A stretch of 64,000 nt of DNA, taken from Liolophura sinensis (Eukaryota; Mollusca; Polyplacophora; Chitonida; Chitonidae). Positions within the stretch are counted from its first letter, which is position 1, and the number at the start of each line of letters is the position of its first letter. Below are positions 1 to 53,700 of this stretch, one piece after another. Location: positions 34,335,385-34,399,384 of the forward strand of contig NC_088295.1 of assembly GCF_032854445.1 (NCBI RefSeq), in the 5' to 3' direction. The translations under genes and the position numbers were made by a program. Below the pieces are notes generated by a model. It did not search any database. It was not told the origin of the DNA and was given only the letters and a program-made list of their open reading frames with translations.

Positions 1-1485
1 TGCGCCTTAGCGGTACATACTGACAGTAAACTCACCCGGCCATGGTTGACGGAGGAGGTGTGCTTGACGACATTGCGCCTTAGCGGGATATACTGACAGT
101 AAACTCACCCGGCCATGGTTGATGGAGGAGGTGTGCTTGACGACATTGCGTCTTACCGGTACATACTGACAGTGAACCTCACCCGGCCATGGTTGACGGA
201 GGAGGTGTGCTTGACGACATTGCGCCTTAGCGGGATATACTGACAGTAAACTCACCCGGCCATGGTTGATGGAGGAGGTGTGCTTGACGACATTGCGCCT
301 TAGCGGTACATACTGACAGTAAACTCACCCGGCCATGGTTGACGGAGGAGGTGTGCTTGACGACATTGCGCCTTAGCGGGATATACTGACAGTAAACTCA
401 CCCGGCCATGGTTGATGGAGGAGGTGTGCTTGACGACATTGCGTCTTACCGGTACATACTGACAGTGAACTCACCCGGCCATGGTTGACGGAGGAGGTGT
501 GCTTGACGACATTGCGCCTTAGCGGGATATACTGACAGTAAACTCACCCGGCCATGGTTGATGGAGGAGGTGTGCTTGACGACATTGCGTCTTACCGGTA
601 CATACTGACAGTGAACTCACCCGGCCATGGTTGACGGAGGCGGTGTGCTTGACGACAATGCGCCTTAGCGGGATATACTGACAGTAAACTCACCCGGCCA
701 TGGTTGACGGAGGAGGTGTGCTTGACGACATTGCGGCTTAGCGGTACATACTGACAGTGAACTCACCCGGCCATGGTTGATGGAGGAGGTGTGTTTGACG
801 ACATTGCGCCTTAGCGGTACATACTGACAGTGAACTCACCCAGCCATGGTTGACGGAGGAGGTGTGTTTGACGACAATGCGCCTTAGCGGGATATACTGA
901 CAGTAAATTCACCCGGCCATGGTTGACGGAGGACGTGTGCTTGACGACATTGCGCCTTAGCGGTACATACTGACAGTAAATTCACCCGGCCATGGTTGAC
1001 GGAGGAGGGGTGCTTGACGACATTGCGCCTTAGCGGTACATACTGACAGTAAACTCACCCGGCCATGGTTGACGGAGGAGGTGTGCTTGACGACATTGCG
1101 CCTTAGCGGTACATACTGACAGTGAACTCACCCGGCCATGGTTGATGGAGGAGGTGTGTTTGACGACATTGCGCCTTAGCGGTACATACTGACAGTGAAC
1201 TCACCCAGCCATGGTTGACGGAGGAGGTGTGCTTGACGACAATGCGCCTTAGCGGGATATACTGACAGTAAATTCACCCGGCCATGGTTGATGGAGGACG
1301 TGTGCTTGACGACATTGCGCCTTAGCAGTACATACTAACAGTAAACTCACCCGGCCATGGTTGACAGAGGAGGTGTGCTTGACGACATTGCGCCTTAGCG
1401 GTACATACTGACAGTGAACTCACCCGGGCATGGTTGATAGAGGACGTGTGCTTGACGACATTGCGCCTTGGAGGTACATACTGAC
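1..1485. repeat. 73-bp satellite array, about 20 units, homologous to integrin-like exon 4/intron 4
   Basis: Units repeat every 73 bp from the left edge, each with TGACGACATTGCG, CGGTACATACTGACAG and CACCCGGCCATGG. Variants (CGGGATA versus CGGTACA, GACGG versus GATGG) alternate in patches, suggesting unequal exchange of multi-unit blocks. Read on the minus strand, a unit contains ATGTCGTCAAGCACAC, then CTCCTCC and CCGGGTGAGT. This is the sequence of 12606-12680 in the integrin-like gene, including the exon 4 donor. The minus strand encodes RNVVKHTSSINHGR; exon 4 encodes RQNVVNHTSSISQDR. The array is cut by the window edge. Confidence 0.9.
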
Positions 1486-1489
1486 GGTG

Positions 1490-2130
1490 ACACTTGGTCA
1501 CACAGTCACAAATATGACAACAGCTACCCTAATATAGTTCTGATCAACAAAATAGCACCGACATTTGGTCACACCATTACAAGTACGAGAGCAGCTACTC
1601 TAATATAATTCTGATCAACAAAATAGCACCGACATTTAGCCGCACAGGCACAAGTGTGACAGCAGCTACCCTAATTACAGATCTGATCAACCAAATGGCA
1701 CCGACATTTGGCCACACAGTTACAAGTCTGACAACATATACTCTAATATAGTTCTGATCAACAAAATAGCACCGACATTTGGCCACACAGTTACAAGTAT
1801 GACAACAGCTACCCTAATACAGTTCTGATCAACAAAATAGCACTGACATTTGGCCACACAGTCAGGAGTCTGACAACAAATACTCTAATATAGTTCTGAT
1901 CAACAAAATAGCACCGACATTTGGCCACAAAGTCACGAGTCTGACAACATATACTTTAATATAGTACTGATCAACAAAATAGTGCCGACATTTGTTCGCA
2001 CAGTCACAAGTATGACAACAGCTACCCTAAACCAGTTCTGATTACTCAAATGGCACCGATACTTGATAATGTAGGCATAAGTATGCTTCAGAACAAGCAC
2101 TTCAGTAGCTCTCATCAACCACATAATACA
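1490..2130. repeat. 71-72-bp tandem array, about 9 units, related to integrin-like intron 3
   Basis: GATCAACAAAATAGCACCGA recurs at about 1542, 1613, 1685, 1756 and onward. Units end near CTAATATAGTTCT. The outermost unit (2040-2110), read on the minus strand, matches the end of intron 3 of the integrin-like gene (TATCGG...ATTTGA...ATCA...AA at about 12470-12515). The array lies exactly where intron 3 would fall in the inverted copy, between its exon 3 and its exon 4 satellite. Confidence 0.8.
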
Positions 2131-3689
2131 GACATTTTCAAACGTGTTGTTTAAGTAACAAGTAACAAGCAGTAAAGGAATGAGTTATCCTACAATACAG
2201 TGGGACATCGCGAACTTGACAAATGAACTATTACCGGACATGACGCTTTATCTTATGGGTGCATGAGGGCAATAGCAATTGATCACTCATTAGACGGTAT
2301 GACACCACGCTCATGTAATTTGCAACACAAAAGACTTATTAGCTTGACGTGTTAAAATCATTTAATGTTTGAAAGAATTTCGAAGGTTTTTTTCTGTACA
2401 CTTTCAATATTCGCAGTGCAGGATCGCTGTTGTTCTCATTGGTTCTCGACATCTGGACCCTGTAGTTGTTTAAATGGGAGTCTTCCATGGAGCAATCGAC
2501 GCAAGAGAAGTTTAATCAAAATAAAGTAGTAAATAGGTATCAGTTTAAAAATCGAAGGGGAGTAAACACTGAAATTTAGTGTAAAATACATGTGAACGGG
2601 TGATGTGTTAGAATAGAAGTCATGGCATCTTTCACTACGTATACGCCTGTGATAACTCCAGTAAAACGGAAGTGTCCATTGTTTAAGGACTCGGCCGCTA
2701 CTTTGGTGTTAAGATATGTATATATTTTAGGGAAGGTTAAATGATAAGGATCGGAACAGTCAGAATTGCTTTCTTAAATTGTAAAAAAAAAACGCGTTGA
2801 ATTAAAGCAATTGTTGTTAGTCCGGGAGGATAATACGGAAACAAAAGATTTCTGCCGTTTCCACTTTTGCCTGGTGTAATTTTTTTTGAACCGTGGTGCT
2901 AGCTATATTCATAGGGTATCCTTCATATCAATTTAATATTTCAACCTGGCGTCTCTTAGGACACGAAGTAGCACTTTAATCATGGACGACAAATATCCAT
3001 ATAATAGGGGGGTTCTTAAGAAGCATATTGGGGAAGAAATTTTCGAAATACTGGCTTAGTTTTATGGTAGCATGTTCATGGGAAGCAAATACTTAAGATA
3101 GTATTTGTAAGGAGAGGTAGGCAGTTTTAGTCTTTGCAAAACTCCTGTTTATCTTCATAATGCTATGCAGCATGTATGCGCGCCTGGTTCAACATCAGTA
3201 CGAATATGGTCTGTATAGACAACGTGTGGATGTACAGACAAACGTGTGGATATGCAGACACATGTGTGACTGTACAGACAAATGTATGGTTGTCTACCTC
3301 ACTCCGGGCGGGCGGCCGGACACTGCCCACACGTCTTCTGTTGACAAGGAAGGCTGCGGGTCGCCAGCGGGTTACCAACTGAGCAAGTATTAGATTAAGG
3401 GAAGCTTTGAATACAAGACTATAAAAATATGAAACAGCACTGATTTAACTTGGTGATAAAATGTCAGGACATCTACAGATAATCCAAAATAAAATACATA
3501 TATAAAATGCAACTGTAGCTTAAAGTCAGGAAATGTTCCATGTAGCTGGCGAAGGACAGGGGGTTTACTCCTGACACACCAATCCTTAACCCTAAGAGCC
3601 GTAGTCTTATAGCTAAAAAGAGTACGACATAAATAAAATAAATGTAGTAGGAGTAGAAATGAATACAAGTTCGAACCCAGCTCTCGAAC

Positions 3690-4040: not shown

Positions 4041-4629
4041 TATAAGTAATTAAATATAATGTAAATCACAAAATATCTACAATAAGTACAGTAATTAAAG
4101 CTCTTAGTTTAACAATCCTTAATCATCCAATGCTTTCGCTGGGATTTGTTAAGAATAACGTTGTTTTACTCTGGCCACTCCATCTAGGCTATATGCCTGA
4201 ACGCTTTGTGTACAAATGAAAAATTCTTTAGTATGACGTTAACATCATTCACTGGATAAATGAATGAATAGGTAAATAAATAAATAGGCAAATATATAGG
4301 TAAATAAAAAATAAATGATGCCAAACAAGGTGGACAATACCTGAGGCACAGCAAACCACCACAGCAAGGATGATGAGGGTGTTCAGATTGCTTCGATAAG
4401 AAAAAGAATAAACAGCCCATTTTATAATGTCTATCCAGTTCTGTTTTCAACCGGGTGTCACAAGCCACAATTAAGATTAAATGTTTGTTATACACGAATA
4501 CCGCATTGACCACAACTACATGAATGATGTCATCTGTGGTAGTTGATACATATCGAACTTGACGCAATGTCCAGCTGAATGCAGTAAAGGTAAAAACAAA
4601 ACCCAATGTGCTATACAGTTTAGAGTGAG

Positions 4630-6899: not shown

Positions 6900-8980
6900 G
6901 TTGGTGAATGACGCACCAAAAGAATTTGGTATACGTTTTAACTAGAGGAAAGAAACAATGAAAAAGCAGCTCAAAACAAGTCCATACCATATATGATGAT
7001 CATATAAAAAAAATGGTCATACAATCACCTTAAACAAGTCGATCGAATCCCCTAAACGTCTGCAATACACTGAAAGATAAATAGATCTAAATAGATAGTC
7101 ATTTCCAGCAAAATTTAACTACAATAATTTATCAGCTTAAGAATTTGGAAAGATCTCCGCAAAAAATAATTCCTGGCCATGCCCCCACTATAACGGCTTC
7201 ACAGATAATGTGTCGAATAAAAACCATTGTCACTTGGAGAGACGCGCTAAGGTACCTGCATACATCGTTTGTGTTGAACATTTACCTGGTCATACAAGTG
7301 TTATATGTATATAGATATACAGTAAGTAGTAATGTCTTGGTTATTACCCAAGATGCGCTTTCCAGGGAGTTAGCCTATATAGCGTCTAAAATATTACATC
7401 ATAGGGCGCAAACAAGCCTCCACGTATATATTTAGTTATATATGTCCAGTGATTGCTCTGATGCACTGAGGTACCTTTCTTATTATTCTTGGGGCTCTAT
7501 TTTCTTAGCATTCTCTTGCAAATTCTTGCAAATTGGTTTGCAATTATGACAAACCTATCCAGGATTTCATTTCTAAACTAGACCTAGCTTTAGGATTCTT
7601 CTGCTTGTATGTAAATTTTTAGTCCTTACTTGTATTAAGTTACATATGTCAGAGAATGTCAGAGTTAAAACACAGATGTAATGATAACTGGGCTTCCTTA
7701 ATTAATGACGTAATAGGTTCCAACCAATAACATTTTGCTTTCAACACTGCGGATTGCATTTATTTGTATTTATTAAACAATAATGGAATTTACATCAATA
7801 CCGGCGTCTCTTTCAAACTATGATGAAAACTTGGATGACATTTAAATTTTAAAAATTTAAATCTGATTACAGTATACAGTCGTAAATTTGCATTGTAACA
7901 CTATTAGCTATATAATGGACGTTTGGCAGTACGTGCTGCAAAGTCTTTTTGCCTTTCTTGGACTTTCGATTAGTTTGAAACCACGCAGGAGATTTGTTTT
8001 TACACAGAATACACAGATATCAATAAGTGAAATTAAGATATATCTCGAGGTAAAATGTGATATCTGTTAATAGTTTTCATCGAATATTTACATTCTATTC
8101 ACTAAATCTCCCGATATTTGCCAGGAAACCGTGCACATGCAGTCACGTAATCTATCAATACTTACACGTAATTCTATCAAATATTTTCAAAGAAGACCTT
8201 CATTTTTACGTCTTCAGTTGTAAAGGTCAGATATACCCTACCGAAATCTGTACAAGTGGATGCCAACAAGCCAGTTTCGAAAGCAGACCTTTTGAAGCTT
8301 GTCAAAATTCTATCTACCGTTTCCTTTTGTAGAACCTGAGGTCATAAAAATGGAAGTCAAACTTACTTGTTTGACGTTCAGCATTAAGGGGATAGTGCAA
8401 CGACTGGTTGAACCCCCTTCAGTATAATGGTTCGGATGGGGCTGATTATTTGCCTTTCGTGGTCATATGACTGAAGAATTGCTAAGTGCGACGTTAAACA
8501 ATAAAATCACTCACTCACTCGACATTGTGATTACCATGGTTGAAACTATGTAGGCGCGTTTCTCGATGTACAATTGTTGCAATCAGCTAATGAATTCTTA
8601 TAAACCATACATTTGTCCAACAAATATTAAGATTTAAAGAATGTAATAGTTATGAATTTTCACGATAAAAGAATCTACTTTATCCCGCCTTCCTATACCT
8701 GAATTTTAGTCAAAAGAAATGACTTAAAACGTGTCTTCGGCTCTCTGAAAGACATCAACTTCCGGAGCTTAAGCGACCCCTGGACCCTGGCTTGTTAGGT
8801 TGTTAGGATAATAGTTCCACATAATTTTCCCATCTATCCCAGACTTTTTGACATTCTGCTTTCCCTGATGTGCAGATATGTACGTGTAGATAAATAGAAG
8901 CCGTTAACCATTCTCGTGTGCTAAGTTATATGTTCAGATAAATTATTTAAAAAATGAAATGATAGTTTGTGTTAAAAGTT
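6900..8980. other. Spacer between the two inverted arms; no gene seen
   Basis: AT-rich sequence with only short chance frames. Weak inverted similarity continues inward (about 7.10-7.15 with 8.92-8.96 kb) and fades. A SINE tail fragment is present at 8.38-8.52 kb. If both arms were once expressed, this was a divergent promoter region. Confidence 0.5.
8380..8520 (+). repeat. SINE 3' fragment
   Basis: AGTGCAACGACTGG leads to GGTCATATGACTGAAGAATT, GCTAAGTGCGACGTTAAAC and a CACTCACTCACTC end. The tail is the same as at 4.0 and 4.63 kb. Confidence 0.65.
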
Positions 8981-9608
8981 TGTATGTTCTTCTGTGTGCT
9001 ATAGTATACACCTGGAGTTTATCTACCTTCAAGCAAACAAAGCTACTAAATTGTGAATATTTATGCCATCAGTGCTGCTTTCAATAAAGTCAAATTGGTC
9101 ATTTAGCCCGAATAGGATTTGAATAGTATTCATTCGTGGATATTAGATATATATGCAACAAACTGCAGTAAGCATGTGTGTACTCTTTTTTTTAATGTTT
9201 GGTAATTGTGGTTCAAACTACCTGGAGGCAAACTCAACGAAAATGCATTTTTCGGAAATTGTGTTGGTTTTTCAGAAGGTGGAAACAAGGGTACAGTTTT
9301 TCTTGCCAATTTAATATAAGTATGTAAGTGGGGTAGAGTCAGTAACTTGTAAGGAACAAGTGACACGCGTACGTACTTAAAGGTCTTTCAGCGCGAAGTC
9401 GGCTGTTTTAAAGCTTATCAAGACAACGTCTGCCGGTCGGAATAGAGTCAAATTTCATGATATCCTGAGGCACACGCGATTTCCTTCCCCCCCCGTGCCC
9501 TGTACTCTCTCCCTAGACCAAGGCTTTGTTTGCCAGAGAGAGAAAGAAGACGGACAGAGAGAGAGAGAGAGGTGCTCTACATCGCACAGGCAGCAGACGG
9601 GCAAGAAA

Positions 9609-11153
9609 ATGTAAGTGTACTATTACTTCTTAATTTTATCTAAGCAATCGGGTATGGATCTAAATGATAATGCCTTCCTTTGTGCTGATGATATCTCGGG
9701 TGGGAGGAATAAGTTTCTGTTGTATTTCAGCCTTTTGTTCTTTTATGCATTCTCTCTAGCAGCTTAGTGCATGTGAGTAAAGAGATCCTCGGACGGATCG
9801 TATAACGGAGTTAAGGCTGCGACAGCAGAAGTGTACATGGCGACTCAGTTTGACACATCCATCCTCCTTAAGCCGTGCCATGACATACCGAGAAACCTAC
9901 TTAAAGCAGATGTCTTTTGCTCCGCGTATACGACTGTTCTATAAATTGAAAAACCACACAGGCGTCATACAAGGAGCCATTCATACACCCGATGCATTTC
10001 TACACTATGCAGCTGGTGTATAGCTTATCTCAATGTCATCATGGTTCCGCTGCTTTGACCTTGACCCTTGACAAACAACGTCACCAATGTTTATAGATGG
10101 TATCATAATCTCACAAAATCCCCCTTCTGGGACCACGATAAATTTAGGATATGTTGTGTACAACATTTTTAATACTAAAAGCGTGCATATAATTTGTCAG
10201 CGCCTAACAATTTCAATCTGCAAGAGTGTTAGTGTCGACCTATTCTAGATTGTTACCAAGGAAGTGAAATGATACTAAATAATACTAGTATTTGAGTCTG
10301 AAAACGTCTCATTTATAATTATGTTCCAACCCGTTTGTGCTGAAACAAACCAGTACAAGTTAACTAAAGCTTATGTTGTTGTGATTTATGTTTTGGGCAC
10401 AAATGTCCGTTAGAGTATCGTCGAAGTCGTAGATGTCGCCAAAAGAAATTGTTCACCACACTCAAGAATATCCCTGCTGAACGCTAAGTCATTAAACGCG
10501 TTGTTGAATTCGTCTTCAGAGAGGTACTAACAAATTGGTAATAATTGCATGGGACATATTTACATGGTAATATATACTGGGGAAAGGCTGTATACACCAA
10601 ACTGCTCATGCCTTTGTTTAAAAATTAATATCTGAAGGAGGCGGCGTGCCCCTGCCAGTTTTGGAGATTGTCGGAATTAGAATGCCATCTTTATTTTATC
10701 AAATCAAACACTCATCTTCTAGTAATTAAGAAAAATGGAGAAAAGCTTAACGGGAATCTATTAACATTGCAGAAATGCCTTTTAAATGTTTGAATATAGA
10801 ACATTCACCAACCTAGGGAACAGAACAGAAAACTGATTATTCATCTGAATTGTATGGGACAATGGACTTTGTAGGATACTTATCCATATATGTTGTAGCA
10901 GACTTCTAATTTTGGCATATCTTGATTTGTATCTATTAAAAGAATGGACAGTCAATTTCCCCAAACCACAGATGACTCCATCCGTGTAGTCAGGATTGAA
11001 GTCTTTTATATCAAACAACCAAACTTAACTGAGACATCAGTGAAAGCCAGAAGTGGATAGGCCTCATTAAATGGCTTCTTATTGATTTTATTTTTTATCA
11101 AAGGAATCTGAACACCCTCATCGTCCTGGCTGTGGTGGTTTGGTGTGCCTCAG
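9609..11153 (+). CDS. Integrin-like exons 1-2: split start codon and signal peptide
   Basis: Exon 1 ends in AAAAT followed by the donor GTAAGT; exon 2 starts with G after an AG acceptor at 11102-11103. The ATG is therefore split AT|G by a 1.49-kb intron (9611-11103). The first residues read MNLNTLIVLAVVVWCAS, a good signal peptide with a hydrophobic core and small residues near the cleavage site. Exon 2 is 50 bp and leaves phase 1, which matches exon 3. Exon 1 is otherwise 5'UTR; a short GA tract lies just upstream (9559-9572). The promoter is probably within 9.0-9.57 kb, a segment that has an inverted match at 6.5-6.9 kb. Confidence 0.75.
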
Positions 11154-14100
11154 GTATTGTACACCTTACTTGACAGTTAATAAGCTTGTTATTTGTTTAT
11201 TTATGTTTTCATTGAATGGTGGTATGGCCATACTCACGAATTGTTTAGTTATGTATGGGGTGGTGGGGTCTATAGGTTCTGTTGACCATTGAGCAACTGC
11301 AAGATTTCTACTCCGGATTCCCGCTTAACACCTGAAAACTACAGGGATCCTGACCTGATCCCGACTGAGCATTGTAGATCATTTTGAAGCATGGCAGTGA
11401 GATGATGGGGAACTATAGCTTAAGTTTATTTGTTGAGGGGAGCCCGGGGGATACCATCGCAACTCGCCAGGTGACATAGATTAACGTTGTATTTTCAATT
11501 TTTACGGTTGCCAAGAGTAAATCCCTGCCCATTGCCAGTTACGTGGCACATTTCCCGACAGGCTATAAATGGATTTTAATTGCGCGCTACGTTCTCACAT
11601 TTTATCATCAAATCCGACAAATTAGGTCCAGTACCGTTTCAGATTTGTTAGGGTCTTGTGCCCAAAGATTCGCTAAACTAAATCGTTATCATTTGAAATC
11701 ATTTCTCTGTTGGTAATCGACAGGCGATCCCCGGACTTGTCGTCAGCAGAAGACGTGTGGGCAGTGTCAGGCCGCCAGCCCGGAGTGTGCCTGGTGTTCT
11801 GATGAGGTAGACAGCCGCACACTTGTCTATACAGTCACACATGTGTCTATACAGCCTTACATTTGTCTATACAGACCATATACGTATTGATGTTGAAGCG
11901 GGCACGCATACATGCTGCATAGCATTATATGAAGATAAACACGAGTTTTACAAAACCTTAGACGGCCTACCTGTCCTTACAAATACTATCTTCTGTGTTT
12001 ACTTCCCCCATGAACATGTTACCATAAAACCATGAAAGAAGTGTGCCCATATTTCGAGATTCAATAGCCACGTTTGTCTATAAATACAATACTCATACTG
12101 GTATTCAGACTAGACCCAGGCAGGGATACCTTAGATATGGCTTGATATGAGGACGCACATGAGGGAACAAAATTATCCACGAAACGTTTTGATAAACCTC
12201 CGTGGCCGAGTGGTTAGCGTACTAGCGCAGACGCAGTAGTCACTCCCAATGCGGTCGCTGTCAGTTCAAATCCACCTCATACTGGCTTTCTGTCCAGTTG
12301 TACATGGAAAGGTCTGCCAGTAACCTCCGGATTATCGTGTTTACTTCCTCCTTAGTGCAGGCTTTCTTCATATAAGTGAATATTATTGAGTTATTCGTCA
12401 AAAACCAATTTATTAAATAAATAAATAAATAGTTCGTTCATCAGAACCATATTGCATTGCCTATTCTCAAATATCGGCATACTATTTGATTACATCAAAA
12501 TTATATTCAAAATCAAACGGCCTGTTTTCTTAGTAGTTTGATTCTTCAGAACTACGAGTGGAACAGATGTGATCGCAGGGATTACCATTTCCGATGTCAG
12601 CGCCAAAATGTCGTCAACCACACGTCCTCCATCAGCCAAGATCGGGTAGGTTCACTCTCAGTATACACCGCTAACACGGAATGTCGTTGACAGCACCTCC
12701 TCCATCAATAGTATATACTGCTAAAGTCCTCCATCCGTACGTATGACTGCCACATCGTAGGTCTATTAGTGAAATGTGATTGAATGTGCAGATAAACACC
12801 AATCTATTCAATTCCGAATCCATTTAGTGATTGAAGAATGTGTATTGCAATGATCACAGAAGATACAACAATGCATCTTAAGTCAGCTTGATGGCAAATG
12901 AGTTGTCATTACACCCGATATTTTCAGCCCCGTTTTTCATCAGTCCCTTAGTCTTTAATCTCATGTTCATCTGATCACGTCCTGTGTTTTTAGTATTACG
13001 TTCTTATGTTCTTTAGGGCGATAGCATGAAATGTTCCACTTTTATATTTCCCTCTTTTTTAGGCACGACCTATTGGCGGAAGAGTTTTGATTTCCCCTCA
13101 ATATTTACAGGCCGTTCTTTATAAAGGTATGGAAGTTGTTTGGATTAAGCCTACTGTAAACGTGAAGATAACAAATTGCCCATATTGGTAGCTAAGCCTG
13201 TTTTAGACACATGCATATGTCCCCTATTATAATGTAGAACTGACATCTTAAACTGATATTTTGCAGGTCGCCCAGCCCCCATTAAAGTCAGAGTGAAGGT
13301 GACAAGTAGTGACGTTAGACGAAGAAGGGTAAAGAACGTCTTTAAATCGCACATTTTAATTCAGAATTTGTTGGATATAGATATGTATGTTTGAGCATGT
13401 ACTTACGCCAGTTTTTCTCGTATACTACACGGAGTACTAAACCATTAGTTCAACACTGGTTCTAACAACATGGGTATAAGTCATAAGGAGTAAATGGAAA
13501 TAAACAATAAATAATAAACAGAGAAATCTATTTTGTTTTCATTATGTATTTGCAAGTGGCGTTTTTCTTAAAGCATGTTGCAACAATACAATATGCCAGG
13601 CACCGAATGTATATGTAATCAGTTAAAGAGGTACAGACGTATAAAACAATTCTCTGTAACAGTTACTGATTGTTCGTCATGCTGTTTCAATGAATCCACT
13701 GTATTATGGCTGTATTACTGCAGATTAGCCTGCGCCAGAGAGCAGTGGAAGGTGTCACGGTCACAGTGTCATCTGATTGCCATGGGTAAGTTCAATTCAC
13801 TTTTTTCAGTGCAGTGCGACCTGCAATTGTCAACAACATTGCATAGCACCATAACCATTAATTGGGAACCTCCAGAGGGCTGCCTGTCAAAGTGGTCGTA
13901 GTTCTAGTACAAGGGTGACCAAGGATTGCTTGGTGTCCTTATGGCAAAGGGGAATAATTTCAGTTTCGACATTGTAAATTATCCGTATTTGGGTAGCAAT
14001 ATATCAATGAGTACTGCATATGGCGTATACCTGAAATTCTACCGTGAACACTCTTGTTGGCAAATGTGGACAGAGCGATCAGGATATTTGGCAATTTCTG

Positions 14101-17100
14101 CCTGTTATTGTTGTTTCTAATTCCATTAAACTCATGGCTAGGGCATATAAGCATCCATGTTTACATCATCAACGTGGTGCTTGTATGAACACTTACAAGC
14201 AAACCACGACCTGTATTTACCTATATTTGCATTTGACTCGGTAATTATCCACAGACCGTGAATTTCAGTTGGATATCATGTCTAGATTTCTTCCCGGCAT
14301 GTGTCATTGAAGACTGATGACTGCTTCTCTCGCACATGCTAGCAGGTTTGTTTACTATTTACATATTATTTCTCATATATTCCTTTGGGAACTGGTGTTT
14401 CGGATATGGGTCTTATGATAATCGACTTGGAACGCCCATCCCACGGTATACGAGTAGAATGTCTCGTAGATTTACCATAAACAAGGTTGCATGTGTTAAC
14501 TGTCTGAACAACTGCTTCGGTGGCTTAATGGTTAGAGCGTCCACCTCGAATTCGGGAAACGGCTGGACCAAACCAGGGTCGGTTCATACCAAAGACTTAA
14601 AAAAGCTGTTTCCTCGCTGAGCGCAGCATTGAGAGGCTAGGGCAAGAAAACAGGACTGGTTGGCGCGGTGTCAATATAACAGGTCTTATCAGGTCTGGTG
14701 TTTTCAGCATGATTCTTCAATGTCGCAGCACTTTGGCGACATGGACTCGTTATGCCACAAGACGACACAGTATATGTACACACACCTACTGACTCCGGAC
14801 ATGTTCTGGAAATGATGTTCATGTTAAAATGATGTTCTACCTTCTTTTACTTAAAAAGGTGACAATTCCTTGTCCGCCGCAGAGAAAACCATCTTGATTC
14901 AGCAAAACTTATGCCTATCGGACGGAAGCGTTGCTCTGACACTAGAACCAGACAATTTTTCCAGACGACACTTGATTGACGCGTGTCACACTGGTGCAGC
15001 GCGCTCTCTACTCATGACATCTGCCAGGTGATCCAATATGGGTCACCGGGACGTGCGTTTTTGAGGCTATGTTTTCATTTTAACCCTGTGTACACACTGC
15101 TCAAGCTGTGACCTTGAAAACTGGTCAGTATATAAACAAAATCATGGCATTTGAATGTTTGAAAGGGTTTGAACAAAGGATAATGGAGTAATGCAGCATC
15201 AAAGTACGGCCTATTTTTTTATGCCCTCCCGATATACATAATTTTCTGACATATCGTTTGTGTCGTTTTCGTAGAGATATTGCGTCAGTCGAAAAGACCC
15301 TCAGATCCGTTAAACAATGGTCACTGATGTTTGGTCAGGTTTGGTTTTAATAACTGATCTAATGATGGTACAGCTATACGTATATATATAATACGTGTAA
15401 TACGGTCAGAATGAGCTGATATCTGGCTGAATTCTGAACACATTGTCAGACTTTGAAGAGCACGATGAAGATTACAGCAAACATGAAACTTGTGAGCTTA
15501 TGTACATATTCTGTGTTTGATGGACTGGGGAACGACAGGAATTGTGTTATGGCCCATATTGTCCAGTGATGCGTGGGATTTGAGCTCTTCGAAAGCTCGA
15601 AGTAGCTTCCAGTATTCCCGTCTTCCGTGCGACGAATCGAACAGACTGAAGAGAGAGCATCATGGTAATTCCCTACATTGCCCCGCTCTTGTCTTCCAGA
15701 CCTTCTATTATATGTATAGAAGAAGGGGAAGAGCTTTCCGTTAGAGAAGTGTGCGAAGCGAACAAACGGAAGGGCGTTCTTCTACTTCTGGAACTGCAAA
15801 TCGCACGGACATCAACATGGGATTAAAATTAGATTTTGATCTTCATATGAGACAGGACAAGACATGGCTTATTTTGTATGCCCACCTGGATATGGATATG
15901 TTAATTTGATTGTAAATTCTTAGATTGATCAATACGGATGTTCTACATCTGGGTAGTGAATCTATATATGACATTCGTTTACCAGCCATCAACCTTTAAG
16001 GACGTTCCAGGTCAATAATCTCAAGGCCAGTTCCCAAAATGACGTATAACACAAACCACCTAAGAACTATAAAAGTATACAAAGTATAAAAACATGAAGG
16101 AATACATGCATAGAAATTTCTTGCATTTGTAGGAATAGGACCCCATCTTCGTTTTGGGTGGTTTAGTTCCATGTCCGGACCATGTGTGATCGTCTATCCG
16201 TGACCCATTTCTGGGTCTTTCCTCCAGTTGATACTCATTGACAGCTTTTGCGCTAGATGTTTTTTGGGAAAAGTATGGTTTTACTATAAAATATTGTCAT
16301 TATTGTGGCATCTTTGGTGTATTTTGATCAATATTGTGTCTTACAGGTTCCAGGCGTCAAATAATAACTGCCCTCGAATCAGATTGGGAGAGATCGTAAG
16401 TCTACAGTTCTCTGACGTAGTGAATAACTTAGCTTATATAACTATGAACAAACATGATGCTCAGTGGTCCCAAAACTCAAACAAAACATGGCAATAAGTA
16501 TTTGCACGTTATTAAAGTCATGCAGTAATAGAGCCGAATATTATCTGCTGACTTACCAAAACTGCTGCAGAAATAATATAACTATTGTCATGGCTAAGGT
16601 TTCTATAAAAAGAATTTGTAAACATGTAATACATTTTATTCTGCTTATGTTGTGATTTTGTAACAATATCCTGTTAATCCGACAGATCAGAATCTTTTTA
16701 TATTGTACTTATATGAATAGAATATAATTAAGATTGACCGGTTTCCTCCTGCGTTTTACAGGTGGAATTCACGCTGACACTAACCGTGGAGAGATGTCAA
16801 GGTAGACAAAGGTAAACCAATTATATAATATAGTAAGTTAATATTTCTCACGTTTAATTGAAGTTTTACGATCACTTTTTTTATAAAGAAATTTGTTGTC
16901 TTTTAATCTCCTTCTGTGCGAAATGTTTTCTCCGACCGTTTGCAATGCAATGCCGACATAATTATAGTTCTGTCTGCACGGAAACAGCGTGTAGAACACG
17001 CCACATAGCTCCCCACTCCACATAGCTCCCCAAGGGAGAGCACACTCTACTTCTTTACCCATTTTGTGTACCTATGAAATATGTTTGAAGGTCACCAAAT

Positions 17101-20100
17101 TAATGACACTATGGACAGTTAGTTTATGGGACAAAACTGTCCAAAGTGGTGAGATGTTTTGCTCAAGGGAAAACTGTCCATTACTATATATAAGCGGCGG
17201 AAAAGTTAAAGTATCGCTAGCCATTTAACAAGGTCGATTGTATACCCAGGCCAGGCTTCGATATAAACAAGGATATTTAGTAATCAGGTGATTAAAGTTT
17301 GTTTGGTTAACCCCTCGTCATGCAGTCGTTGACAATATACCGTATCTATGTCTGCATAAACTCGGTTGTGTCAACATCGCACCAAGTTATGATTTGATTG
17401 GATCAAGATACCAGGTACACAAGCAACGTATTTGGATATCGGCTCAGTAGATTGTATTTGCACCGGAAATCAGAAAAGTTAACCTCAGCTGTTGCAGGGT
17501 TCTCGATACACGGTTCATTCAGCTAGAGGCATGTTCTCACTGCATCCAATTGGCCCCTGGGCAATGAGGTCCGAATTCGGCTATTAAAGGTTGCACAGTG
17601 GCTTTAAATCTAAAGCTTTAAAAGTAATACCTGGGAAATAAGCGGCTTTAAATCTAAAACTTTAAATCTAATACATGGGAAATAGCTGTGGTTTACTCTG
17701 GTTTCCCCACCCATTAATATCACCACCATCGTATAAGTAAAATTTTTAAATATTAAATTCTAATAAAATGAAAAATTAATCAGCCGATCAATTGGTGTGT
17801 TGTTTCCTCATGTTTCCTGTATCCTCATGTTTCAAAAATAGAATAATACACTATTATTTTATTTCTTTCTTTTAAAATTATTACGAATGACATTCTTATA
17901 TGCTCCTCGTGTTTTAATTTGCCAGAATGCGCCTGGGTTCCCCGGGTGCCCGAGGGAGAGCCATCAGAGTGGATATAACTCCCAAATGTTCATGTGACTG
18001 CGAATCACAGACTTCGGTAATGCACACTTGCACGATACATACATGCATACATTAAAACAAACCATCCAGACTGTGTCCAAATGCATGCTTCCTCACATAT
18101 CATGGTCTTATGTCCAGTCCGTCAGATATATAACCTTAAAACCCCATGTGGTCAAACCTTAAAACCCCAATTGTGATTGCCAATTGCCCTGTGTGAATAG
18201 CTATGACAGACGGTTCAATTCGTCTGGTTCTAGTCGGGTTGCAAAAGATTCCCACTTGTCGTCCTGGCTGGATCGTGAGAGCCGTCACTGTTAACGCAAC
18301 GTCACGTTTTCACTGGCTACTTTCACGCCCAAGGTAAATGGAGTCTAATCTGGGTAGTCCGATGTTCATTCCTGTCTTTGAGATGATCTTTGGTGGGCAA
18401 GCTGGTAACGTAGTACTCGTGGATTACAAGACAACAACGGTCAAGTCAGCTTGGAAACGAGCCATTGAGCGATTGTCCATTTGTTCAGTATGAAGATCAG
18501 ATCAATATCATAGAACAATATGATTAGGTTGAACCAATCATTTTCAGCCTTCTTCAGTTGAAAAAGTTCTTCAGTGTATTAAAGTTGGTTTTTGGATTCA
18601 TTTTCCTTTTCTGTATGTTGTGACTTACCATGTTGTTCCACAGTCGGACGACACAAGGTGCAGTGAGAACGGTAGATTCTCGTGTGGAGAATGTCAGTGT
18701 TACCGCGGCTGGTATGGAGAACGTTGTGAGTGTAGTTCACAGGAAGGGGACCCCCGTGCTGGTTGTATGGCTTCCCAAAAGTAAGAAAACATAAATCAGC
18801 ATTGTTCCTATAAACTAAAACGATTAGTAAATATGTAAAAGATGACGCTGTTTATGGGCAAGCATTAGTAAAAATTTGCTGACTGTACCTGACTGTAGAC
18901 GGACGTTTTATTACCTTGGCCATAAGTCACTGGAGTCATGTAATTTATGCTTTGCGACAGCCTTGCAAATAGGACATCTCTTGGGCTTTTTAGGCAATTT
19001 TCGCCAATCTTGATCCACAAGCGCTCGTAATTATGTAAATGAACCTATATTGTTGTCCCATTTCTTCAATATTGTTGAAACTGTGTTTTCATTTTCTGAT
19101 AACACACCATCTTTTGCAGCTGTGGTTATACAAATGAGGTGTATTTCAGTCTATTGCACAGTATCTTCTTTTCTATTTGTATACACTACCAAACTCATAC
19201 GGTCAAATGAACTTATTTCATAGAGAATGTCAAAGAAGGCATTTGAAATTGCAGTCAACCACACGTTTTGATGGTTTTATTGCAGTGCTACCCGGGAGTG
19301 CTCAGGCAGGGGTGACTGCCTTTGTGGACAATGCCGTTGTCACACGGACTCCTCGGTAAGGCCCATGAATGATTAGCCTGTTCACTTTGGACTGGATAAA
19401 GGCGGTATAGCAATATTACGTCTGCATGTCGCAGATTTTGTGAAGAGAAGAATAAAAAGTTATTGTTTCATACATAATGAAAGTAAATTACAAAAACAGG
19501 TTTAATTTCTGATTTATTGCAGGAAAGATTTCGATACTATGGCAGGTTCTGTGAATGTAATGACTTTGCGTGTCCCTTCCACGACGGCCAAATGTGTGGA
19601 GGTAAGTCTTGTATGAACATGGAATCAAGTATACCTCGCTGTGGCCGATTGGCTGCGACGAGCGCAATACTTTGTCTGACCGAGCCCCTTCTGTTCACTA
19701 GGAGAATGACATGTTTTGGGCTTCTTCTGTTCAGTACACGTTAGGAAAATGTCATGTTCTGAACCCTTTCTGTTTTGCACACTTTAGGAAAATGTCATCT
19801 TTTGATCCTTTTTGTTCAGTACATGTAAGTAGAATGTCATGTTTTGACCCCTTCTGTTCAGTACATGTAAGGAGAATGTCATGTTTTGGACCCCTTCTGT
19901 TTTGCACACGTAAGGAGAATGTCATGTTTTGGGTGTTTTGGGTTCACGTTTTGGAGACTGTCATGTTTAACCCCTTCTGTTCAGTACTTGTATGGAGAAT
20001 GTCATGTTTTGAACCACTTCTGTTTTGCACACTTTAGGAAAATGTCATGTTTTGATCATTTTTGTTCAGTACATGTAAGGAGAATGTCATGTTTTGAACG

Positions 20101-41700: not shown

Positions 41701-44700
41701 CATTTTTTTGCTCAATGAAAAGCCACAGGAACAGGGTAATCTATTTTCATAACAAGGAAAGTCATACAGGAAGTCTGGTAAATTGTATGAAAACGCGATT
41801 TTCAGATGAAGCGATGTTATGAAGTAATTTGATGTTTTGTGATGAATAAAAGGTGCCGGTATGGATCCACTTAAACACCAGTTTGGGAAACTGATGAAAG
41901 TAGCAAAATTTCATGAATTTGCAAATTTTCATCGTCAAATATTCAATCTGCTGTACATAAATTTTGATGGACAAGATCATTTTTTGGCCGGACACATCTG
42001 ACAAGTCAGTGATACTTTCGAATCCTGGCAGTTATGGTGACAATATCTGTAAAATTTATTTATTTATTTCGTTATGTTTTACACTGTACTGAATATGTCA
42101 TTTACATGACGACAACATCTGTAATAAGGGAATCTTTTATTGTACCTTACTGAAAGATTACCAGGTACTTTGTTGTGCTAGACAGAATACAGGAAGTCAC
42201 AGCAATGTGTAAAGCATTCAGTCAGAACAGTTCTTAGCATAACAGTTGCGGTGTGGGTTAGACTCACGACTATCTATTTGCTGTATCTATGGCCCATGTT
42301 ACCTGCTTCAAGAAGTCTTGTTTTCAGATCCATGATTGATTTTATGGCATTCGGGCAAATCTTTGGACATCAATATATTGAACTGAAAATAATCCTATGC
42401 AGGCTACTACTGTTTGATTTACATGAGGGACATGTATTCAGTCAGATCTTTGTATATTTACAGTTATTCACGGTCCCAAAGAACAGATTGTGAAGCTCAG
42501 AACCACCACCTGCCTGTTCAGGTAAAGAAAAGAAAAAAGTAGTTTCCTGGTCCCAACTTCACTTTATATCTACCTTGTGTCTTCTGGTACATGTAGCACA
42601 TCATTTTAAGTTTAAGAGGAAGAAAACATAAAAATGATGCCAAAATCAGATGAAAGAGCGTCAAAACTTTTTTGCAAATAATGATCTTTAATATTTCTTT
42701 GGATTTTTTTTTTCAATAGAAAAGGGTATTTGAAAATGTTTTTGTATGGTGGGTATTTGGGATCAACTTTTGGTATTTATCATTGTTGCATAATAATGTT
42801 GCATAATAATAAAATAAAGATGTGATGCTTGTCTAATAAATGTATTTGAATGTAAATTTGTTGTTTATATCGAAACATATGCATTTAACCTAAATTATGG
42901 TAATATTTATGAACATATTAAAAATATAAATATGGTCCAAATTGAGGTTTATTACATTGGTTAGCTGAAAAGAACAAATTCTAGTGCAAAAATATTTACA
43001 TCCTCATTTATGACATTATTAAACAAAGGCTATAAATACCAAAAGGTGATCCCAAATACCCACCATACAAAAATTATTTTCAAGTGTCTTTTTCTCCTTA
43101 AGGAAAAATCGGAAAAAATATTGAAGACCACATTTAGGAATAACTTTTGGCACTCTTTCATCTGAACTTTATGTCATTTTTATGTTTTCTCTACCTTTAA
43201 ACATTTACAATCTTGTTTTAAAATGAGCTGAATTTATGCTTGATTTAGCTTCAAAGTTTTTATATTGTTTATCTCTGCAGTGTTCTCTGATTGTCTTTGT
43301 TTCTGTTCAGTGACAATGTTTTAGATGCATGTATTCCAGAGCAATCAGATATTATCCTGAACTTCTGTGAGATGTGAAAACACTGTGCTGCTTTGGTGAG
43401 TGGCTGGTATAGTTTCAGAAATGAAGTACGACAAAAGAGAATGAGGTGAAAGTGTTGTGTCTCTGTACGCGGAAATGTTCCTGGTTTGAGATTTACCAAA
43501 TACCTTTTCCGCTTGTGTTTTGCAGAGCCTATGAGCATGCCTACAGTTTACTAGAGACTACATTCCTGCCCTTATTCCATCAGAGTGACCATGTAAGTAA
43601 CTCGCCATAATGCCAGGTTTATAATACTTCAAACTTGCTTTTAAAAATCCAATATTCTGTCTAAATATTTATGTGAAATAAATCAAACAAAATCTGAAAT
43701 GTACAATTCTGATCCTTTATGTTAAGACATTGTTTGAGGGTGTGTATAGCTGTAGTGTTTTACTTTTCTAGATCATGAGGATAAGCAGGTAAACTGCTAT
43801 TCAGTGGATTATCAAACGGTAAACTGATGTAAAATAACTAACTATTTTCCAGTACTATGCCATGGTGTGTGGAAGCAGAACACCATCATCTCTCAGCAAA
43901 AGTGCTTCAAAGTAAGTTATCTTCATCTGTCTTCACATCTGCAATTTGCCATCTACATGAACATGCGTACTTACATATTTAAGTTACAAAGATCAGTAGT
44001 TTTTTTTCTTAGGGTAAGAATAACAGTATATTCGTCAGAGGAACTTTGTAACCGTTTAATTTCAATATTTTAAAAAACTTACATTGTTTTTTTTTTTTAA
44101 ATGTGACCTGGTGTAAGGCTCTTGAAATCAGTGAGACTAATGCTTTTGGTGACTAAGTCAGCTGAAGTTTCTTTCATTTATTCATTTACTTTTTATCTTC
44201 CTAAATCAATTCATTAGTAAAAATTACATGATAAAAATTAATGTATTTTAAAGAATACGCCCTATTTTAATTTGTCATTTTTAGATTGAATGAGGGTGAA
44301 TTAAATGGACACGTTTTTAAATTGTTTTTTATAGTTAATGCAATCATTTACCTTTTCATAGTTCTTTCATGAGCACCAAATCTCACTCCAATCATCATAG
44401 GTAAAGATTTCTGCCATTTTTGGTCTGGATTCTCTAGTTTCTTCTTTCTGAGCTCTAGTGACTCACATTGCTTTGTTGTTGTTGTTGCAGTGTGGTGCCT
44501 CTTTTACATGTAGTTGATGTGTTTGTGGTGTGCTCAATTCTAGGAGAACTGTTGTAATATGATGTAATGTAATACTCTTGCTGTCTCACCATGTCTCAGC
44601 TTTTCTGCCTTTTCTCATATTGTCTTGCTTTTATAATGAGAAACGGTATCTGCACAAAGGCATATTATTTCTTTTGATAGTTAATAAAAAAATCGAGATA

Positions 44701-50700: not shown

Positions 50701-53700
50701 ATAGTGGGAACATGGCACTACACAAAGGAGCCTGTGATTATTTTTAATACATTGTACCTAATTAGTAGATATTATGAAGTTATTACATGTTTTTGCCATA
50801 CTGAACAGTAATAAGTTGTATCATCCAACATTTTCTCTATGACTTGTAGCTGGAGTCTGGGCTGACTGCAGTTTACCGCCAAAGAAATCATTTGGAACCA
50901 AAAATCAGGATTTTATGGAGGAAAAACGAGATGCCTTAGAACAGTACTTACAAGTTAGTACAACCGTGTATGATTTTATTTGTACCGATGTGTCTGAATT
51001 ATATATATGTATGCTTCAAAAATATAGCTGCTTCTGTAACACTGTCCCACACGTACATGCATCACACAGGGAATTAAGAGGCAAGTTTTGATTTTGTATC
51101 CAGCGCATTTAGAATTTTGGAGGAAATTGACATTGTTAAACATACTTTTTCATGCCAGTATATATTGTAGTGCCAGTTTTCAATCTTTCTATGTTGCATG
51201 ACTTGTATTACATGTAGGTTTATCCATTATCCTATTTTCCATTATCCTATTTTCCATTAACCTGTCAATGTTGTTTTGTGTTATAGAAATTGCTGTCAAA
51301 ACCAACACTAAAGGGGAGTGAACTCTTGCACAACTTCCTTGCCTCTGAGCGAGAGTTCTCTGCTGGTTTTTTAACAGACATCAAATTAGGTACATTAGGT
51401 TCAGATTTTCCCCCAAATATTGCAAGTTCATGTAGTTGGTCACACAGAAGACAGTTATTGTGTTACATTTAAGATAATTATCATAATTTTGTTCTGTTGA
51501 TGGTCGTGGGTTCCCCCCGGCTCTGCCCTGTTTCCTCCCACCATAATGTTAGCCGCCGTCGTATAAGTGAAATATTCTTGAGTACGGCGTAAAACACCAA
51601 TCAAATAAATAAATAATTTTGTTAACTTATTTGGGATTGTTAACTGGGTGACATGACTAAATTTGTGTGGAATCACACTTTTCACAAGTCATGAAACATA
51701 TCTAATGTACATGGTCTGTTAGTAAAGTACCATGTCATCTTACTAATATCTGTGACCTTACTTTCATCACAGGTAAAATGTTCCGCTCTGTTCCTATGAA
51801 GTTAGTAAAAGAGGTGAGATTCTTATTGTTAGCATGAAGATAAGCACAAAGTGTTGTGATGAAAAGTGACACTATTGTATTTGACCTACAATTCCATCCA
51901 TGATGGATTTACTCCTTGATCCTAGAAATGTGTTCAGGAGTTTGTTCAGAATTACATTAATGTCAGTTTCAGCATCAAAAGCACTGGTAATGATATCAGA
52001 TCTGTATTTGCCTTTATAAATATATGTTTGGGTGAATGTTTAGGGAAAACCAAGCTGTTCAAGATGTTGTTGACAATGCCAAAAACTGACCTCCTAAACT
52101 GTATGTCTGACTTGTAGAAAGGCCAGCATTTAGAACCATTTTTGGTGTCCCTGGTACAGTCTACAGAAGCTCCCAAACCCAGGCCGAGGTAAGGCTGATG
52201 ATATTATTTGAAACTTGTTACATTCTTATACCATGCTGAGTTACAGACCATGTTTGTGTTTTGGGCTGTTTCGTCCATTTTCCACAAAATTTTTGTCCTG
52301 TTATGAGCAATTTTTCCAATTTTCCTTTCCTAACGGTTCATTGTATTCATTTGAAACCTGTACATGGCGTAACCATGATGAGTTACCCATCACGTTTGAA
52401 TGTTGGGCCATTTCATCCATTATCCTGGTGTTTGGCTCCTTTTGACTCCTTTGAAAATAATTTGTTTTTCTGAAGTGAGAGATGATACAAGTTATGTCAA
52501 AGATACTTTTTGTATTTAGTTATTTGATTTGTGTTTCGTAAGATATTTTAAAATGTTATTACACTTTGGAGACAGGTATAATACGTGGTAGTGTTCTGTT
52601 GACGTGTAACTGAGTTATACCGCGTCTGTTGTTGTTTTCAGTAAGATGGAGAGAAGAGGTTCTGATGCCTCCTCAACCTCACTCAGATCCACAAACAGTG
52701 AGAAGGTGAGTTGCTCATTAATTGTGTTTACTCATGCAGTGTTGACGGGATATTCTGGAGAATACCACACGTTTGAGAGGTTTTAATAAACTTAGAACGA
52801 AAAAAAATGACTTTAATTATTATGGCCCTATAGGTGAACATTTAGCTCCTACATGAACACCAGTTCTGCTATTGCTATATTTAGTGATAGTAATACATTA
52901 TAATGTCATTCATTGTTTTCCAGCGCATGCTGGCTTCCTTTCCGGTCGTACGTGGGAGGGTTTTCCAGCAATCTGCGAATGGTTGTGGTTTTCCCCACGG
53001 GCTCTGCCCGGTTTCCCCCTACCATAATGCTGGCCGCTGTTGTATAAGTGAAATATTCTTGAGTAGGGCGTAAAACATCAAAATCAAATAAATAAATTCA
53101 TTGCTTTCACACTGATTCAACAGTGTTTGATAAAGCAAGTTCTGAACACTAGTGAGTAATGATAATAACACATTGTTGCTGTTGAGAGCTTTAGAAAGCA
53201 CCTTGATTTATTTATTTGATTGGTGTATTACAATGTGCTCAAGAATATTTCACTCATGCGACGTGGGCCAGCATAATGGTGGGAGAAAACCATGCAGAGC
53301 CCAGGGGAAACCCTCGACGATATGCTTTTTGCTTGCAGACCATCTGAATTTTATCCTTATTGAAATGGGTGCTAGGTAGTTGTTGTTGTCTACTGTTTCA
53401 GAGTTGCAGCACAATCTTTGAAAACAACGCAAACATCAGTCATGACATCGACCTCCCGGGCAAGGATACAGACCTCCCAGTAGAAGACATGGATGGGGTC
53501 TTTGATGCCATCATTTATATTGGTATGGTTAGATATTAGTTGGGCTTGTGAGTAATATTTAGCTCAGATGTGCAAAGTACCAGTGTGACTAATGTCATAC
53601 ACCAAGCAGTCTTGTCCAATATCAGCAAAAGCATTGTTAAGGTAATTGTTAAGAATGGTATCTTAAGAAGTACTGCTTGTATTGAGCTCAGATTTTGCAC

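Follow-up and report, generated by a model that had tools for sequence, protein, structure and literature searches.

The 64,000-nt stretch of the Liolophura sinensis genome studied here (the window, C1:34335385–34399384 in a single 609-Mb assembly) begins with a 73-bp tandem repeat, the minus strand of which resembles the end of a coding exon in an integrin-beta-like gene located further along the same stretch. This raises the question whether a tandem array has been born from an exon and its splice donor, as the original prediction proposed, or whether an earlier repeat has donated coding sequence to the gene, and when in the history of the locus the repeat has grown. The features considered are collected in Table 1.

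Table 1. Coordinates of the array, the parent gene, the inverted copy and related features (positions in the window unless a contig or locus is given).
Feature	Position	Strand	Comment
73-bp minisatellite array	1–1485, continuing to window –218 (L001:9782)	–	TRF, blastn, unit extraction
First full unit, u1	1389–1461	–	Inner edge of the 73-bp array
71-bp array, 7.8 copies	1489–2042	–	TRF; abuts the 73-bp array, unrelated to its unit
Inverted copy of the PSI exon with flanks	3059–3576	–	Disabled: acceptor AG lost, 1-bp insertion, 17-bp deletion
Inverted copy of the probable signal peptide exon with flanks	4292–4540	–	Label assigned by eye
PSI exon, integrin-beta-like gene	11723–11806	+	PF17205, E 4.1e-8 (joined PSI exon and exon 4 peptide)
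Possible remnant of the 71-bp unit, intron 3	12430–12507	+	Two tandem partial copies; 0/300 rotated shuffles
Exon 4	12550–12645	+	NYEWNRCDRRDYHFRCQRQNVVNHTSSISQDR; phase 0 at both ends, boundaries by eye
Gene counterpart of the unit (G1)	12608–12680	+	Exon tail 12608–12645, intron start 12646–12680
Second, decayed unit (G2), intron 4	12681–12726	+	About 24 bp missing, donor included
Third integrin-beta-like gene	C1:34328690–34330807 (L001:3306–5435) and L015:4871–8960	–	Left of the array

Structure and Genomic Distribution of the 73-bp Repeat

For positions 1–1485, TRF yields a period of 73, with 20.3 copies, 92% matches and 0% indels, and the same array is detected left of the window edge, at L001:9824–10000. 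Unit-by-unit extraction results in 23 full units of approximately 1.7 kb in total, from u1 at the inner edge to u23 at the outer one (L001:9782–9854, that is, –218 to –146 relative to the window). The proposed tandem organization is thus retained, the number of copies being 23 plus a partial unit instead of about 20. The partial unit, 24–29 bp long, lies upstream of u1 and borders the 71-bp array at 1485–1490. A single 74-bp unit is found among the 73-bp ones, and one inserted base in u18 was set aside in difference counts.

Each full unit is comprised of 38 bp of exon tail and 35 bp of intron starting at the donor GT. The hexamer following the exon tail is GTGAGT in 18 units, GTGAAT in three, and GTGAGG and GTATGG in one each, GTGA being retained in 22 of the 23. 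As 73 is not divisible by three, the reading frame is lost along the array. The lowest number of differences from the gene unit, 14/73, is observed in u1, u5 and u10.

Scanning of the 609-Mb genome with a degenerate 29-mer (up to three mismatches) identified 24 matches, 23 in the array and one in the gene, with none for the reversed control. In whole-genome DNA searches, which skip very common words so that the counts are lower bounds, the unit consensus had at least 23 matches, all 23 within the array, and the gene stretch had at least 21, namely itself and 20 in the array. The genome-wide abundance of the unit, suggested as a check of the prediction, is hence limited to the array and the gene, with no unrelated loci found in these searches. 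The array is a single-locus minisatellite, consisting of head-to-tail units in the range of ten to about 100 bases, and not a dispersed satellite; satellite DNA in the strict sense is present in numerous copies, either in extended arrays or scattered over multiple loci, and the initial label “satellite” should be abandoned for a repeat of this length present at one locus.

Similarity of the Unit to the End of Exon 4

The minus strand of the array matches positions 12607–12708 of the gene over 102 bp, or 1.4 units, with 75–82% identity and the best E-value of 2.8e-20 (blastn). The doubled unit consensus aligned locally with the region 12440–12760 has a score of 114, the maximum in 1000 dinucleotide shuffles being 35 (0/1000 equal to the observed score). 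The gene stretch scores 58, compared to 15 for the best unrelated tile out of 2384 background tiles, and the three top-scoring tiles (46, 42, and 16) all represent the gene’s own region. The predicted antisense match to the end of exon 4, its donor and the adjacent part of the intron is therefore confirmed, and the positions initially assigned to the two matching segments, 12606–12680 and 12680–12716, are correct within a few bases. The matched end of exon 4 contains 38 bp, part of 13 codons, and is followed by the donor GTAGGT at 12646–12651. The second partial unit is present as well, as had been predicted (G2 in Table 1).

At the protein level, the exon 4 peptide aligns with in-window units with 47–67% identity over the tail, and with u23 with 77% identity across 13 residues (tblastn), in agreement with the claimed peptide parallel between the minus strand of the array and the exon. 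A chance or low-complexity likeness has a negligible probability, given this E-value, the shuffles, the score of the best unrelated tile, and the fact that the sole match outside the array in 609 Mb is the gene itself.

The Parent Gene

The gene is integrin-beta-like, with the PSI domain (Table 1), I-EGF (PF18372, E 3.1e-7), and the beta tail (PF07965, E 4.5e-9) found in its exons. Matches to the beta-I domain (PF00362, E up to 0.1) are all on C11 (18/18) and none is in the window, long models being liable to miss weak exon matches in this genome; the window gene is possibly an integrin beta that has lost this domain. In phmmer comparisons with solved integrins, the PSI exon and up to 11 first residues of exon 4 are covered, with the tail outside; the tail is reached only by weak matches to plexin-A2 (E 0.029 and 0.097). 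Following exon 4, short exons were noted by eye in the region 13063–18766, the next clear domain being I-EGF at 18641–18766. A segment of intron 3 (12195–12440) resembles, also by eye, a tRNA-headed SINE with a TAAA tail.

Paralogues and Direction of Origin

The argument on direction is built on paralogues within this one genome, with exon boundaries in the paralogues and the third gene set by AG and GT signals judged by eye. Three paralogues from C11 (L009, L010, and L011) are 89–100% identical across exon 4, which is in phase 0–0 and has 16 residues separating the conserved Cys and the donor, same as in the window gene. The third gene contains a PSI exon, exon 4, I-EGF-like and beta-tail matches, in this order; its exon 4 (C1:34328690–34328788) is also in phase 0–0, with 15 residues between the Cys and the donor.

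When the tails of the window gene and the C11 paralogues are compared at equal length, 9/5000 shuffles are as good as the observed alignment, the identities being only the Cys and an Asn, accompanied by similar residues. The comparison with the tail of the third gene, for which the slice is one residue out of register, provides no support (2474/5000). For the whole exon 4, 18/5000 shuffles are as good in the comparison with the third gene, and 6/5000, with C11. At the DNA level, the unit matches the exon 4 region of the window gene (0/1000 shuffles as good), does not match that of the third gene (133/1000), and has at most a marginal match in that of L009 (43/1000). Based on the length and phase of exon 4 in the paralogues, the likeness of the tails and these tests of the unit, the coding tail appears to be older than the repeat.

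Hence, the exon-to-array direction is favoured by the present comparisons, as the exon tail agrees with the C11 paralogues in length, phase and, weakly, sequence, and the unit was found nowhere else in the genome searches. The opposite order, allowed for in the original prediction, in which an earlier satellite inserted at exon 4 and gave the gene its tail and donor, would be in line with the partial units flanking the donor on each side; we regard it as very improbable, since the C11 exons share the tail length and phase, the tested paralogue L009 has no more than the marginal match above, no other genomic location was found for the unit, and the exon half preceding the unit is unlike the unit sequence (2333/3000 shuffles as good). 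The same comparison led us to reject this exon half as an earlier repeat. The GTGAGT of the array, found also in the third gene, was considered as the ancestral donor and then dropped; it is not clearly ancestral, as GTA is common to u23 and the gene. An origin of the array from the end of the exon, the donor and the beginning of the intron is thus supported, the exact site and place requiring the corrections described below.

Minisatellites are recurrent in the introns flanking exon 4 in the examined members of the family. In L010, an intron 4 array of 37 bp in 18 copies (2289–2954) starts soon after exon 4, and similar arrays are seen by translation in L009 and L011; the unit of these C11 arrays differs from the 73-bp unit. 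In the third gene, an array of 40 bp in 13 copies is present in intron 3 (L001:4318–4841).

The Inverted, Truncated Copy

The locus contains an inverted duplication, with arms 8334–12030 and 6909–3059 aligned in 12 blocks of 0.648–0.820 ungapped identity. Ten of the 12 blocks are collinear, the two out-of-order ones both falling within 8334–8528. A 20-bp minisatellite directly past the PSI exon donor (11811–11874 and 3212–3293) is common to both arms. Self reverse-complement matches are also seen elsewhere in the window, at 42621–43190 and 52956–53344 (69% and 68%), as is an inverted-repeat family at approximately 35, 46, 51, 53, and 54 kb, with relatives in L001.

Truncated duplicated (unprocessed) pseudogenes in inverted duplications are a known class. 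Like these, the inverted copy retains introns, has a disabled PSI exon and is oriented opposite to its parent; it is not a copy of the whole gene, as homology is undetected beyond the array. Thirteen tiles within the arm have scores of 20–154 (controls, 12–26), and eight gene tiles from position 12727 on score 13–14 (controls, 11–15). In a sensitive blastn comparison of 12709–19000 with the left flank (E up to 1), the expected orientation gave no matches, and the opposite one a single match of 36 bp (E 0.19). For positions 12508–12606, which contain the acceptor and the beginning of exon 4, no counterpart was found in 1200–3420 except for a 17-bp match with E 7.5. As the arm homology ceases at the array and the acceptor and exon front have no convincing counterpart, the array is, judging by these alignments, the outer end of a truncated, disabled gene copy. 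The claim that it sits exactly at the place of exon 4 is correct as regards the order of elements, and has to be amended in that the acceptor and the 5′ half of the exon lack a convincing counterpart and the arm homology ends at the array. Unlike usual truncated duplicated pseudogenes, the cut end here is filled by an expanded repeat of an exon–donor junction.

The neighbouring 71-bp array is likewise confined to one place, all three matches of a three-unit query in the genome search being inside it. Kinship of the 71-bp and 73-bp units was rejected (488/1000 shuffles as good), as was the reading of the 71-bp array as the acceptor and 5′ exon half absent from the inverted copy (361/3000 shuffles unrotated, 11/300 rotated). 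The match of the 71-bp unit in intron 3 (Table 1) is suggestive of a remnant of this unit; the intron 3 tile has a score of 16, with five tiles from three other places scoring 16–18 on the background of 2384 tiles, and with lenient gaps one of 1370 tiles equals it.

Age of the Repeat and Order of Events

The core of the array, units u1–u22, has a mean pairwise difference of 6.4% and stands 21.7% apart from the gene unit. At the outer edge, u23 diverges from this core by 26.6% and from the gene unit at 18/72 positions. In the gene, G2 differs from G1 at 16/46 positions, in an alignment that includes the deletion, and from the core by 31.6%. Within the array, u13–u16 are identical to u17–u20, with no substitutions, and u3–u6 differ from u8–u11 by 1, 1, 1, and 2 positions; such block repeats fit exchanges several units long.

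The ungapped identity between the array and the gene, 0.755–0.824 (20 rows), is within the range between the arms (12 rows). As the core differs by only 6.4% and the array–gene divergence is close to the divergence of the arms, the expansion of the core looks later than the inverted duplication, with the reservation that concerted evolution could make an old array pass for a young one. In separate arm alignments, 271/313 positions (0.87) are identical in the vicinity of the PSI exon and 104/125 (0.83) near the signal exon. Since these best-kept parts of the arms are closer to each other than the array and the gene, the array lineage may be somewhat older than the inverted duplication, or faster-evolving. 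At least two units were probably present at or before that duplication, as G2 is farther from G1 and from the core than G1 is from the core, and u23 is about equally distant from the core and from G1.

The best explanation, which we hold with good though incomplete confidence, combines tandem duplication of the exon–donor junction, an inverted truncated copy, and subsequent growth of the repeat in the dead copy. The 73-bp segment, containing the end of exon 4 (about 13 codons), the donor and the first bases of intron 4, would have been tandemly duplicated, the extra copy being intronic. A segment that starts upstream of the gene and ends with this small tandem repeat would then have been copied in the inverted orientation, and, as the copy ends at the small repeat, it would have been a pseudogene truncated ever since its formation. 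The second unit of the surviving gene has decayed to its present form, with loss of its donor. The dead copy, no longer under coding constraint, would have lost the acceptor and the first half of exon 4, for which it has no convincing counterpart, and its repeat would have grown to 23 units via exchange of multi-unit blocks, as the pattern of block identity suggests. The likely mechanism is tandem duplication over the exon–donor junction followed by unequal exchange. Of the original claim that the array was made in the decayed paralogue, the expansion thus probably holds; the first duplication probably preceded the inverted one, since the gene too has a second, decayed unit. Expansion driven by hairpins received no support: folding of one unit gave z of 1.22 and 0.52 for the two strands, with 183/200 and 133/200 shuffles at least as good.

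The same second unit is compatible with another scenario, in which an expanded array already existed at the ancestral exon 4–intron 4 junction, and, once the inverted duplication had taken place, the gene shrank to fewer than two units, the array of the copy being preserved or lengthened. The large distances of G2 from both G1 and the core, and the position of u23 about equally far from the core and G1, point the same way. However, the gene shows at most two units, and the 6.4% divergence within u1–u22 means that most copies are younger or have been homogenised; we consider this scenario unlikely, though deserving some weight, and prefer growth of the repeat in the dead copy.

Possible Function

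Judging by sequence features, the array looks like a passive by-product, a chance outcome of local tandem duplication, and shows no sign of a function. That it would be an active element lowering or altering splicing of the living gene is highly doubtful. If active, a transcript of the dead copy would carry a row of putative U1-binding donors with no convincing acceptor ahead, and transcription of the opposite strand would yield RNA antisense to exon 4 with its donor; the longest exact stretch shared by the array and the gene, identified by eye in the alignments, is 16 nt, in u3. The locus would be of greater significance if the parent gene were indeed influenced by the string of donors or by an antisense transcript.

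Comparison with Known Systems and Significance

According to a review of satellite birth (PMC12692304), in the parts considered here, incipient satellites arise by tandem duplication to at least two units, which are then amplified by non-reciprocal exchange. The 73-bp array resembles such an incipient satellite in its shortness, in the divergence of its edge unit and in the homogenisation of blocks of several units. The sources named there are transposable elements, rDNA spacers, micro- and minisatellites, and older satellites; unlike these, a coding exon with a splice donor is absent from the source section of that review. Exon origin of satellites is not addressed in the parts of PMC8210747 and PMC5615363 considered.

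Another similar process, as far as the accounts used here describe it, is intron gain by tandem duplication, where the duplicated segment also spans an exon–intron boundary and bears splice signals. The differences are that here the boundary is that of an exon and its donor, no acceptor is carried and no new intron is shown, and that the copies have reached 23, in a pseudogene. The case seems to combine known processes. In the open-licence literature searched, we found neither this combined form described nor an exon–donor junction named as the birthplace of a satellite, which does not imply that such cases are absent.

At this locus, a minisatellite can be traced to its source with nearly single-base precision, and the parent gene is still adjacent. 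If the proposed history is correct, a tandem array can arise from single-copy gene sequence, with a unit spanning the boundary between a coding exon and its splice donor, and can lie exactly where an inverted gene duplication ends.
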